From assembly GCF_003545815.1 (NCBI RefSeq), contig NZ_PDUW01000002.1, positions 248,001 through 312,000 on the forward strand: 64,000 nucleotides of DNA. The letters are read 5' to 3'. A program made the translations under genes and the position numbers. The DNA is from Pusillimonas caeni (GTDB taxonomy: Bacteria > Pseudomonadota > Gammaproteobacteria > Burkholderiales > Burkholderiaceae_B). How positions within the stretch are numbered: position 1 is the first letter of the stretch; every line of letters starts with the position of its first letter. The notes below the pieces were generated by a model that did no database searches, was not told the DNA's origin, and saw nothing but the letters and a program-made list of their open reading frames with translations. Shown piece by piece: positions 20,819 to 24,857 of the stretch.

Positions 20819-22708
20819 ATGCGCCGTTCCCTCATCATCGTCCTGCTGGCCGGCGTGCTGCTGGCCATCGTGCCCTATCTCGGCCTGCCGGCCTTCTATG
20901 AATCGGTCCTGTACCTGGTCTTCCATTGGGTGGCGCTGGCCACTTCCTGGAATCTGCTGTCGGGCTATTCGGGCTATTTCTCGTTCGGCCATGGCGCGTT
21001 CTACGGCATCGGCATGTACACCACCGCCACGCTCACCAGCCAGTTCGACGTGCCCTTCCTGTGGACGCTTCCCGCGGCGGGGCTGTTCGCCGCCTTGTTC
21101 GGCGCCGTACTGGGCGCCGTCTCGTTCCGGGTCAAGGCGGTGCGGGGCGAGCTCTTCGCCCTGCTGACCCTGGCCGCCACTTTCGTCGTGGCCACCATCG
21201 TGCTCAATACGCCCATCGACGGCGGGCAGGGCGTATATCTCAGCGCCGTGCCCATGCCCGAGTTCGGCCCCTCGCCTTCGGGCACCTTCTATCTGCTCGC
21301 GCTGGCCGCCGCCGTGGCCACCATCGTCATCGCGCTGCTCATCTACCATGCCCGCTTCGGCATCGGCCTGTTCGCCATCCACGACGACGAGGACGTCGCC
21401 GAAGTCATGGGCGTGCCCACCTTCAAGTACAAGGTGGCGGCCTTTGCCCTGTCCTGCGCGCTGGCGGGCGTGGTAGGAGGCATACAAGCCATGTTCGTGT
21501 CCTACGTGACCACGGGCGACGTCTTCACCGTGGCCATGCCGCTTACCGTGGTGCTGATGAGCGTGCTGGGCGGCACGCGGCACTGGCTGGGGCCGGCGGT
21601 CGGCGCCCTGGTCATCACGCTGCTGCTGTACAGCTTCACCGCCGGCGACAGCGCGGTGCTGGGCAAGGTGGCCATGGGCGTCATTCTGGTGGGCGTCATC
21701 CTGTTCATGCCCGAAGGCATACTGGGCCAGGCGCTCAAGCGCTTCGGCCGCAAGCCGCCGGGCAGGGCGGCGGTGGCTTCATCGCCTCCGTCGGCGATCA
21801 ATGAGCAGGCTCGTTTGGCCGAAGGTGGCACAGGGCGAACGGCCGAGACGTCCGAGATGGCCGAGCTGTCCCGTTCGCCAGAATCCGCCGTTTCCGCCGC
21901 GAATGCGGCACCCGGGACATCCGGGATACGGTCAGGCGAGGCCCTGCTGGTGGCGCGCGACGTCGCCAAGTCGTTCCGCGGCGTCAAGGCGCTCAAGGGC
22001 GTCAGCCTCGAGGTGCGGCGCGGCGAAATCCTGGGGCTGCTGGGCCCCAACGGCTCGGGCAAGTCCACCTTCATCAATGTGGCCAGCGGGCACTTTGCCG
22101 CCACGTCGGGCAGCATCGTATTCAGCGGCCGGGAGCTGGTCGGCATCAACGCCCACCGCATCGCGCGCTGCGGCGTCTCGCGCACCTACCAGATACCGAG
22201 GCCCTTCGCCCATCTGACGGTGCTCGAGAACGTCGCCCTGCCGGCCATGTTCGGCGCCCAGCTGGTCGAGCGCCAGCAGGCGCAGGAAGACGCCTGGCGC
22301 TGGCTCGAGTTCACCGGCCTGGCGGCGCGCGCCCATGCGCTGCCCGACGACCTCAATCTGCACCAGCGCAAATTCCTGGAGTTCGCCCGCGCGCTGGCCG
22401 CGCAGCCCCAGCTGCTGATGCTGGACGAAGTGCTGTCCGGCCTGACACCCTCCGAGATCGATGAAGCAGTGGCCCTGATACAGCGCATACGCGCGCAGGA
22501 CACCACCATCTTGTTCGTCGAGCATGTCATGCGCGCGGTCATGGCGCTGTGCGACCGCATCGTCATCTTCAATCAAGGAGAAGTCCTGGCCGAAGGGCCG
22601 CCCGCCGACGTCATGGCGCGCCCCGAAGTGGTGTCCGCCTATCTGGGCAAGCCCATCGACGATGGCCGCGAATCCCCCAATGCATCGGGAGTACCCATCC
22701 ATGCTTGA
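20819..22708 (+). CDS. Fused LivM permease - LivG ATPase
   Basis: A 629-residue fusion. Residues about 1-310 are LivM (WNLLSGYSGYFSFGHGAFYGIG motif region, many membrane helices). Residues about 372-620 are LivG (Walker A GPNGSGKST near 409-416, Walker B LLMLDEVLSGL, switch region FVEHVM). A linker of about 60 residues rich in Ala, Glu, Ser and Thr separates them. Two departures from the usual LivG are visible: the signature loop reads LNLHQRKFLEFARALA rather than LSGGQ-like, and the Walker B tail is DEVLSG rather than DEPxAG. The domain order matches the 2.1-4.0 kb fusion. Confidence 0.92.
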   Translation: MRRSLIIVLLAGVLLAIVPYLGLPAFYESVLYLVFHWVALATSWNLLSGYSGYFSFGHGAFYGIGMYTTATLTSQFDVPFLWTLPAAGLFAALFGAVLGAVSFRVKAVRGELFALLTLAATFVVATIVLNTPIDGGQGVYLSAVPMPEFGPSPSGTFYLLALAAAVATIVIALLIYHARFGIGLFAIHDDEDVAEVMGVPTFKYKVAAFALSCALAGVVGGIQAMFVSYVTTGDVFTVAMPLTVVLMSVLGGTRHWLGPAVGALVITLLLYSFTAGDSAVLGKVAMGVILVGVILFMPEGILGQALKRFGRKPPGRAAVASSPPSAINEQARLAEGGTGRTAETSEMAELSRSPESAVSAANAAPGTSGIRSGEALLVARDVAKSFRGVKALKGVSLEVRRGEILGLLGPNGSGKSTFINVASGHFAATSGSIVFSGRELVGINAHRIARCGVSRTYQIPRPFAHLTVLENVALPAMFGAQLVERQQAQEDAWRWLEFTGLAARAHALPDDLNLHQRKFLEFARALAAQPQLLMLDEVLSGLTPSEIDEAVALIQRIRAQDTTILFVEHVMRAVMALCDRIVIFNQGEVLAEGPPADVMARPEVVSAYLGKPIDDGRESPNASGVPIHA

Positions 22709-23423
22709 AGCCCACTCCATCCGCGTGGCCTATGGCGCGGCGACCGCCCTGTGGGACGTTTCCCTGGAGGTCGGCGCGGGCGAGCTGCTGTGCGTAGTTG
22801 GCCCCAACAGCGCCGGCAAGACGACTCTCATCAACGCCATCGCCGGCCTCAACCGCATCAGCGCGGGCAAGTTGTCTTTGGACGGCCGGGACATCTCCCG
22901 CCTGCTGCCGCATCGCTTTTGCGCGGCGGGCATCGCGCTGGTGCCCGAAGGCCGCCGGCTGTTCACCGAAATGAGCGTGCGCGAAAACCTCGAGCTGGGC
23001 AGCTACACCGGCCAGGCTCGCGCGCACCGCGCCGATTCGATCGAACGGGTATGCAACCTGTTCCCCGCCTTGGTGCCCAAGCTCGACGACCCCGCCGGCT
23101 CGCTATCGGGCGGCCAGCAGCAGATGGTGGCCATTGGCCGCGCCCTGATGGCCAGGCCGCGCCTGCTGCTGCTCGATGAGCCTTCGCTGGGCCTGGCGCC
23201 CAGCATCGTGCTGGACATGTTCCGCGTCATCCGCGAGATTCACGCCGAAGGCATGGCGGTGCTTCTGGTGGAGCAGAACGTGACCATGGCGCTGCAGGTG
23301 GCCCAGCGCGCCGCCGTGTTGGAAGAAGGCCGCATCGTGGCCACCGGCACCCCCGACGAACTGCTGGCCCGCCCCGAACTACGACGGGCCTATCTGGGTC
23401 TGGATGCCGAAGAGGTCGTCTAG
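22701..23423 (+). CDS. livF: Branched-chain-type ABC transporter ATPase, LivF family
   Basis: A 240-residue ATPase. It has Walker A GPNSAGKTT (an unusual S for G), signature LSGGQQQM, Walker B LLLLDEPSLGLAPS and VEQN switch. The ATG at 22701 overlaps the end of livMG by 8 nt, so translation is coupled; the longer frame from 22524 lies inside livMG. It is the last gene of the operon, followed by the 425-bp stretch with large hairpins. Confidence 0.93.
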   Translation: MLEAHSIRVAYGAATALWDVSLEVGAGELLCVVGPNSAGKTTLINAIAGLNRISAGKLSLDGRDISRLLPHRFCAAGIALVPEGRRLFTEMSVRENLELGSYTGQARAHRADSIERVCNLFPALVPKLDDPAGSLSGGQQQMVAIGRALMARPRLLLLDEPSLGLAPSIVLDMFRVIREIHAEGMAVLLVEQNVTMALQVAQRAAVLEEGRIVATGTPDELLARPELRRAYLGLDAEEVV

Positions 23424-23476
23424 AGTATTTCTATTCGGTGTCTTATTGAGCGAGACCGTCATTGTGTTCTTTAGAC

Positions 23477-23571
23477 GCTGCCGGGGGATGGCCTGGCTTG
23501 TACCGGGCGGTCGGGCGGACCGAGGCAGCGCCCTCCAACGCCCGGTACAAGCCAGGCCATCCCCCGGCAGC
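23477..23571. repeat. Long perfect hairpin A: 33-bp arms, 29-nt loop
   Basis: Arms at 23477-23509 and 23539-23571 are exact reverse complements (33 of 33). The left arm starts GCTGCCGGGGG and ends ACCGGGCG. The loop 23510-23538 is exactly the reverse complement of the loop of hairpin B. No T run follows the right arm (CTTATAGTGG), so a simple terminator is not the best reading, although it lies 54 bp after livF. Confidence 0.9.
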
Positions 23572-23679
23572 TTATAGTGGCTCAAGCTCCATATACTGCG
23601 TTCTTTTGTCGGTGCAGAACATGTCGGTGCTACGCGCATATTGATGTCTTGCTACATCCGCGGCCAGCCGTATGTGCGA

Positions 23680-23772
23680 GCTGCCCTGGGCGAAGCCTTT
23701 TTGGCCGGACGTTGGAGGGCGCTGCCTCGGTCCGCCCGACCGTCCGGCCAAAAAGGCTTCGCCCAGGACAGC
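23680..23772. repeat. Long hairpin B: 27-bp perfect arms, 29-nt loop complementary to loop A
   Basis: Perfect arms lie at 23685-23711 and 23741-23767. They extend outward by 4 more pairs past one mismatch (GCTG at 23680-23683 with CAGC at 23769-23772). The stem is unrelated to stem A in its middle (GGCGAAGCCTTTTTGG) but shares the outer GCTG and inner CCGGnCG pattern. The loop 23712-23740 plus flanking CG on each side equals the reverse complement of 23508-23540 over 33 bases. Confidence 0.9.
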
Positions 23773-23848
23773 GCTTAAGAAACCAAATGCCCGCCGAGCA
23801 TGAGACGTCTCCCGTATAAGAAGACCATCCATATAGCCCATCAATGCG

Positions 23849-24790
23849 TCAGGCCTGGGCGGTGGCGGCTTCAGTATTGAAGATAAAGTCGTCGGGCACG
23901 TCGGGCCCCCATAGGTACATGGAGTCTTCGGGCGGATATTCTCCCGCCGGCCACGGCTTGTCGGCCGACACGTAGTCGATGTCGGCCGAGTATTCCGAGA
24001 ACGAGCCCCAGGGGTCTTGCACGTAGTGAAAATAATTGGAGCCCAGCACGTGGCGGCCCGTGCCCCAGCCGTGCTTGTAGCCGGCGTCGTTCATCTGGCT
24101 GGCGCCGCGGCCCACATCGTCGAGCGAGGCGACGTCCCAGGAGCAGTGATGCCAGCCCTTGGCCGAGCTTTTGGCGAAGGCCAGCAGATGATGGTCGCAG
24201 CCGTGCGGCGCATGGGTGAAGGCGATGATGTCCAGCGATTTGTCCGACAGGCGCAGGCCGATGGCCTTGTTGTAGAACTCCACCGCGCGCAGCACGTCGG
24301 GGGTGAACAGCAGCACGTGGGACAGCCGGCGCGGCCGAACCGGCTGGCCTTCCGACCGCGCATGGGCGCCGCGCTGATGGGCGTCGGCGACGGGCACGTT
24401 GAAAGGCGCCTTGGCGGTGGGCATGGTGCGCGGGCCTTCCTTGACCTGGACGAGATTGCCGTCCGGGTCGTGGAACCAGATGCCTTCGGCGGTCTTGTGC
24501 GGCGAGGCGCGGTCGAAATCGGCGCCTGCGGCGCGGGCCTGGGCTTCGATGGCCGGCAGCTCGCCTTCCAGGCAGGCAAAGCTGAGGTAGGCCAATGATT
24601 TGCGGTCGGAGGCCAGCAGCCGGCCCCAACGATGGTTGTCGGCCGCCCGCAACTGGATCTCATTGCCGCTGCGTTCGACCTGCAGGCCGAAATTTCCGAA
24701 GAAATGTTCGGCCTGGTCGAGCGACGGCACATTGAGGGCGAAGTGATCGATGGAGTGGATGGCTGCGTTGCCGACGGGTTGAGCTGACAT
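23849..24790 (-). CDS. Type I (VOC-fold) extradiol ring-cleavage dioxygenase
   Basis: A 313-residue two-domain vicinal-oxygen-chelate protein of the catechol 2,3-dioxygenase/BphC class. The three iron ligands are visible in the carboxy-terminal module: His158 (RLSHVLLFTPD), His214 or His215 (GWHHCSWDV), and Glu266 (GSFSEYSAD). This class opens catechol-type rings next to the hydroxyls. The ATG at 24790 follows GGAGGA; the frame upstream overlaps the FAH gene and is not family-like. It is co-directional with the FAH hydrolase 67 bp upstream, and the two are likely one operon controlled by the divergent GntR protein. Confidence 0.9.
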   Translation of the reverse strand: MSAQPVGNAAIHSIDHFALNVPSLDQAEHFFGNFGLQVERSGNEIQLRAADNHRWGRLLASDRKSLAYLSFACLEGELPAIEAQARAAGADFDRASPHKTAEGIWFHDPDGNLVQVKEGPRTMPTAKAPFNVPVADAHQRGAHARSEGQPVRPRRLSHVLLFTPDVLRAVEFYNKAIGLRLSDKSLDIIAFTHAPHGCDHHLLAFAKSSAKGWHHCSWDVASLDDVGRGASQMNDAGYKHGWGTGRHVLGSNYFHYVQDPWGSFSEYSADIDYVSADKPWPAGEYPPEDSMYLWGPDVPDDFIFNTEAATAQA

Positions 24791-24857
24791 GTCTTCCTCC
24801 GTGTGCGTCGGAAAGAGAGGGCTTTTGTGGTGTATGTTTCCGCCCTCTCGGGTTGTA

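Follow-up and report, generated by a model that had tools for sequence, protein, structure and literature searches.

Why do two long hairpins with different stems carry exactly complementary loops in the gap between two converging genes? The question is raised by the window analysed here, a 64-kb stretch of the 4.44-Mb Pusillimonas caeni genome (hereafter G000), in which a left gene on the plus strand stops at 23423 and a right gene on the minus strand stops at 23849. Judged from the translations, we take the left gene to be branched-chain amino-acid ABC ATPase-like and the right gene to be VOC-type dioxygenase-like. The gap between the two stop codons (23424-23848) holds the whole element, within which the boundaries of the inserted unit are putative. 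Our answer is that the region is almost certainly one copy of a dispersed paired element that resembles REPIN/BIME repeats but is larger.

Both hairpins are present as the initial annotation described them. Hairpin A (type T2, 23477-23571) consists of 33 perfect pairs, with 23477-23509 pairing with 23539-23571, and its conserved 33-nt core, the loop, occupies 23508-23540 on the minus strand. Hairpin B (type T1, 23680-23772) has 31 pairs with one mismatch, of which 27 perfect pairs adjoin the loop; its arms lie within 23680-23711 and 23741-23772, and its core occupies 23710-23742 on the plus strand. Both cores match the core pattern with 0 mismatches, and they are the same 33-nt sequence on opposite strands, that is, exact reverse complements. 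A spacer (23577-23679) separates the two hairpins, and promoter-like sites were found neither there nor elsewhere in the gap 23424-23848. The predicted fold of 23465-23780 reaches -200 kcal/mol, whereas 100 shuffles average -131 (sd 5.7), which gives z = -12. A stretch of 23 nt from the loop is found twice in the window and never in shuffled sequence. An intrinsic terminator, meaning a short GC-rich hairpin with an immediate T run, was considered and rejected, as neither A nor B gave such a match: there is no T run at the hairpins beyond short TTTA tails, and the sole terminator-like match in 23300-23950 is a weak 6-bp minus-strand hairpin located away from both.

The short form and its outward-facing pairs

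The 33-nt core occurs in 47 copies in G000 (≤3 mismatches), against 0 for the reversed-pattern control, which bears out the earlier view that the two hairpins are members of one family with variable stems. Among these cores 32 form 16 close pairs with core starts 152-306 bp apart, and all 16 pairs show the strand order "- then +"; the paired hairpins therefore face outward. Loops are identical in 11 of the 16 pairs and differ by 1-2 nt in the other five. Loops A and B are thus complementary because they belong to an inverted pair whose loop is conserved, and on our best reading they match because copies are kept alike, not from a need to pair with each other. A simple script found flank types T1 and T2 joined in 13 of the 16 pairs and the same label twice in one, with two unassigned. 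The stem middles, which had been regarded as unrelated, have instead diverged from a shared consensus, and a switch specific to the liv operon is difficult to reconcile with the same hairpin pair at 15 other places in G000. The remaining 15 cores stand alone, with no partner core within 600 bp; five of them lie ≤430 bp from a contig end, and their partner may therefore have been cut off.

Several details of these copies deserve mention on their own account. At the ends of contigs C2, C5, C18 and C22 (L001, L014, L027 and L033) a common multi-copy stretch, AATCTATGGTCAGCCCGCATTTTGCAAGCG..., follows the hairpin, so that the assembly breaks there. The idea that these contig-end copies lie beside rRNA or tRNA genes was rejected, since no RNA gene was found in the stretches examined. 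At L008 (C1, 47.1-47.5 kb) a plus-strand long form precedes a minus-strand short form, the reverse of the usual order. The outer flanks of several hairpins (left of L012, L002 and L033) carry degenerate, TTGGGTTCTTAAGCGCCG-like tandem copies of the tail, which look like repeated duplication of the outer base.

The short form is present in one of the two other genomes of the genus, G002, whose 11 cores show ACAAA at the loop centre in place of the TCGGA or TCGGT of G000; G001 has no short-form core. The other 265 genomes of the family contain no core at ≤2 mismatches, and an exact scan with 21 nt of the loop found no match among genome contigs, a collection from which records near this genome may be absent.

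The branched long form and its units

In some members of the element family the 33-nt loop is replaced by a branched domain of ~110-160 nt that has the same ends as the loop. A 168-nt query found this long form in 32 of 268 genomes of the bacterial family (16 of 43 genera). Model R2, which was built from 32 long-form sequences and whose E-values are rough, raised the family count to 46 of the 268 (20 of 43 genera); at the level of the order it detected the long form in 76 of 399 genomes, which represent 35 of 159 genera. Few candidates were scored per genome (3 with the 168-nt query, 12 with R2 in the family and 8 with R2 in the order), and the copy numbers there are therefore lower bounds. 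R2 matches beyond the family are weaker; the best has E = 2.7e-14, and many lie around 1e-6. A TGTYYGA...GAGTT core is kept in 11 outside-family matches aligned with three family members, and "- +" pairs occur also at the outside-family loci L143, L146 and L150. At two of these (L146:1420-2060 and L150:1450-1910) a second hairpin, CTTTTCTTTGG...CTTTCTTTTGGCGAAGCAAAAGAAAG, stands on the outer side of the pairs, and this hairpin and the long-form pair seem to travel together.

The long form is itself a conserved structure. In alignment A2, from which L051, L025 and L049 (chance matches) as well as L107 and the second L111 match (long inserts) were left out, 97.5% of cells are paired, and 114 cells carry changes on both sides of a pair, against 29 in shuffles (0/500). 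The domain contains conserved unpaired positions and, internally, compensated short helices. One long form (L107:1361-1569) has an extra structured stretch nested within the conserved core. Six long-form matches occur in G001, which is without short forms, and 11 in G000, so that the 33-nt loop would most simply be a deletion derivative of the branched domain that arose in the lineage of G000 and G002.

Rfam 15 returned sub-threshold hairpins only, mostly miRNA models, for 22500-24800 of the window and three loci at a loose E-value, and nothing at the gathering cut-off for 36 further loci. Carriage as virus or plasmid cargo was rejected: one 261-nt query had no match in plasmids and phages, and the single pattern match in IMG/VR (L335) had no match to model R2. 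A pattern for the long form fitted 110 stretches, and the 80 listed among them include Candidimonas, Paralcaligenes, Pollutimonas, Paenalcaligenes and Alcaligenaceae.

The long form is abundant in G174, another genome (one contig, 4.45 Mb), with at least 150 copies. Among the 133 matches listed, 98 make up 49 pairs, all "- +" and 276-511 bp apart, and 35 are without a listed partner. We examined 40 loci (L185-L224) that were chosen for having both pair members listed, and their 80 matches, all "- +", therefore give no independent estimate of pairing. The A-type pattern fits exactly one member per pair in these 40 units, so the two members are of different subtypes. The units end in an inverted repeat, CTAGnGCATTTTTGGTTCGAGTGTTTACGG. 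Allowing ≤3 mismatches gives 30 matches to it, and the reversed pattern gives 0; a lenient match (≤8/25 mismatches) is present at 68 of the 80 ends. This terminal repeat starts with YTAG, and a stop codon coincides with the repeat at 17 of the 55 ends that have a called gene, so that insertion there would leave the gene intact. By eye, YTAR-like ends flank many of the units, with letters that often differ between left and right. In the window a left end resembling the G174 terminal repeat was located by local alignment at 23420-23446 on the plus strand (p = 0.0045 against shuffles), with a TAG that serves the left gene as its stop codon; the right end shows no such resemblance to the G174 consensus (p = 0.55 against shuffles). 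The flanks in G000 match the G174 terminal repeat at p ≤ 0.01 in only 2 of 32 cases.

Placement, age and probable maintenance of the hairpins

Wherever genes were called in G000 and G174, with a home-made caller trained on G000, the elements are intergenic. Of the 40 G174 units 28 lie between convergent, 7 between co-directional and 3 between divergent genes, with 2 unassigned. G000 has 31 sites, and the 23 with both neighbours called comprise 13 convergent, 9 co-directional and 1 divergent. As a baseline, the window's 40 gaps of ≥20 bp comprise 9 convergent, 19 co-directional and 12 divergent. The excess of convergent sites is significant by Fisher's test both in G000 (13/23, p = 0.012) and in G174 (28/38, p = 1e-5, against a baseline taken from another genome). 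No listed pair spans a gene-sized segment, the largest spacing being 511 bp in G174 and 306 bp in G000.

The history of the sites appears to combine gain and persistence. The gene pair of the window is found in both G002 and G001 without the element or its hairpins, and the unaligned gap measures 429 bp here, whereas that of G002 measures 139 bp and that of G001 24 bp; by eye, the G002 gap has an ordinary-looking terminator instead. Most simply, the window copy was gained in the G000 lineage, loss being the alternative. Seven of 10 distinct G002 sites align with hairpin-bearing sites of G000, six of them on both flanks, and these alignments indicate that many of the hairpin sites in the two genomes are old. 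Hairpins at sites common to a second species, together with the copy number, exclude an assembly artefact, a possibility that had been raised at the outset. The short hairpin of L008 is missing from its G002 counterpart L076. At two further sites (L035 versus L048 and L038 versus L044) the T2-type hairpin lies in opposite orientation in G000 and G002, which may reflect inversion or independent insertion; these two sites are the basis for inversion, and they suggest it at most.

Two lines of evidence support selection on the stems. First, they covary. Alignment A1 holds 56 of 58 hairpins, L009 (broken stem) and L027:514 (cut core) having been left out. In it 98.9% of stem cells are paired, changes on both sides are seen at 27 of 37 pairs, and 405 cells carry double changes, compared with 101 (sd 11) after shuffling (0/500). 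When the partner was slid by 1-3 columns as a control, pairing dropped to 35-48%. This covariation check supports the earlier suggestion that the long perfect stems may be under selection, through compensatory change. Secondly, the stems are biased towards one strand. On the outward strand G-U wobble accounts for 61 cells at 18 pairs against 6 cells at 6 pairs for A-C, an excess with p = 1.5e-12 by cells, which as related copies are non-independent, and p = 0.02 by pairs. On our best reading the hairpins are selected on one strand, probably in the form of RNA, where converging transcripts end. Alternatively, the wobble bias could have arisen through selection acting on one strand of DNA in single-stranded form.

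Seven hairpins were matched between G000 and G002, four of them with both flanks aligned and in the same orientation, and the stems of these four differ by 4, 5, 6 and 1 double changes. The count for L033/L047 was not used because an 8-nt loop duplication misaligns the pair, and L035/L048 (11 double changes) and L038/L044 (7) are uncertain orthologues because the hairpins face opposite ways. In every one of the seven matched loops the two genomes differ at three centre positions, the same throughout; two of the loops have one further difference. Thus loops co-evolve within a genome, and stems drift but stay paired. The L047 duplication (L047:1501-1541, CCGCCCGA) is a tandem one within a single G002 loop, and the loop is therefore not absolutely fixed.

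We propose that the outward-facing hairpin pair is dispersed, is spread by copying and is kept in the form of transcript ends, an account to which we give an even chance overall. Its parts differ in strength. That the element is mobile, as the initial annotation had suggested for a palindromic element, appears somewhat better than even; movement is here inferred from the gap that lacks the element in two relatives and from the copies of the parent form in G174. Units would be copied into intergenic gaps by a putative enzyme. A role as RNA transcript ends is slightly less than an even prospect. Each hairpin, read outward as RNA, would be a very stable transcript end, and such ends would limit read-through and decay between converging genes; units between gene ends would be kept because their hairpins form these ends. 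The co-directional sites and the few divergent ones run counter to the convergent-end reading. We consider it rather unlikely, as a broader version, that the repeat is a new structured RNA class across much of Burkholderiales that is at once mobile body and transcript end, acts as a two-way insulator, is carried by a route other than RAYT, and has the short loop as a derived state.

The main rival of the RNA transcript-end reading is a purely selfish, non-autonomous element similar to MITEs or REPINs, whose hairpins would be recognition structures for an enzyme acting on single-stranded DNA. Its recognition of them would account for the paired stems and the one-strand wobble, and the convergent bias would mark sites where insertion does no harm. 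This is a real possibility, if clearly short of even. It draws on the high copy number of the long form in G174 (at least 150), on the inverted terminal repeats there (30 matches versus 0 reversed), on the gap that is without the element in G002 and G001, and on the parallel that REPINs are likewise described as inverted doublets with compensatory changes (PMC3116915). However, the Y1 transposase is absent from the three genomes of the genus, no gene-sized segment lies within any listed pair, and nothing similar came up in plasmids or phages with the single 261-nt query. Moreover, the sites common to G000 and G002, with stems that have diverged yet remain paired, suggest maintenance.

Mutation bias alone is improbable. 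It would have template switching in a quasi-palindrome pair the stems, and breaks at the tip followed by conversion keep the loops alike, with selection on RNA not required. The frequent double changes in matched stems would fit, as would the 47 G000 loops near one sequence and the 11 G002 loops near another, including those of the seven matched hairpins; but the one-strand excess of G-U over A-C (61:6) is not predicted, nor are the conserved unpaired positions and compensated short helices of the long form. A local RNA switch or kissing pair between loops A and B, a helix that the initial annotation had entertained and that is possible insofar as the 33-nt cores are exact reverse complements and any transcript across the gap would hold both, is very improbable, as nothing points to it: complementarity is automatic in an inverted pair, 5 of 16 pairs have 1-2 loop mismatches, 15 of 47 cores are without a near partner core, and the same hairpin pair stands at 15 other G000 places.

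The structured repeat was detected in 35 of the 159 genera sampled from one order, shows strong compensatory evolution and is without an Rfam match. The element bears on the means by which palindromic repeats disperse when a RAYT is not found, on how converging genes are kept apart, and on the preservation of a large RNA-like domain across many sites, three questions that are usually separate lines of study. The 47 stems of G000, together with the matched stems of the second species, form a ready data set on compensatory evolution.

Comparison with known systems

Bidirectional intrinsic terminators occur between convergent genes and have GC-rich stems. The element is similar in its GC-rich stems and its position between gene ends, but its stems of ~30 bp and loops of ≥33 nt, without a T run here, set it apart. 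Integron attC sites are imperfect hairpins with conserved 7-bp core sites on the outside and with bases left extrahelical on one strand; judged by eye, the stems here are perfect and the tail GTTTAAGAAC is without the expected core. MITEs are non-autonomous transposons with terminal inverted repeats. The G174 units resemble them insofar as they are many and end in an inverted repeat; in contrast to MITEs they have structured subterminal hairpins with strong covariation; the terminal repeat is barely seen in G000, and the Y1 search in the three genus genomes turned up no parent transposase.

Three further families from related bacteria are close to the element by description. The Beta-proteobacterial repeat element (BRE) is intergenic in Bordetella and other Betaproteobacteria, and part of it is transcribed as the small RNA BprJ (PMC3110155). 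Its units are given as 75-91 bp, frequently arranged in tandem and separated by few nucleotides or none, rather than as inverted pairs (PMC3110155), and no such tandem array was found at the R2 match in L139 or L140. Bor-1 is, like our element, an intergenic stem-loop family, with a length of 117 bp and 196 members in Bordetella bronchiseptica (PMC2267715). The Burkholderiales-1 motif is likewise a candidate structured RNA from the same order, which its survey lists with no Rfam number and rates as ambiguous (PMC2864571). BRE (PMC3110155) and Burkholderiales-1 (PMC2864571) could overlap with the apical domain. We call the element new in the sense that Rfam 15 gave no match to it and that the literature searched contained nothing recognisable as this element.

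A match to a known family, REP/BIME or other, had also been envisaged; against it stand the lack of an Rfam match and of any RAYT-type transposase in the three genus genomes. A search for the Y1/RAYT transposase (PF01797) gave 0 of 3 there, the control being positive in 5 of 14 named genomes, and a RAYT-driven REP was rejected for lack of this enzyme in those three genomes. By eye, in alignment A1, a GTAG or CGTC tag at the base of the hairpins was not recognised. We have not filed the element as REPIN/BIME because no RAYT is found in the genus and because it is not a short tagged palindrome. The likeness to these repeats as described in two papers (PMC3116915, PMC3733652) is as follows: both are intergenic and dispersed, form inverted palindrome doublets mostly in one orientation, show compensatory changes in their stems, and have single members that are likely remnants. 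The difference is one of scale and architecture. Where REPIN/BIME members are palindromes of 20-40 bp, the element described here has hairpins of at least about 95 nt, with stems of ~30 bp topped by a 33-nt loop or a 110-160-nt apical domain, arranged in units of 0.4-0.9 kb.
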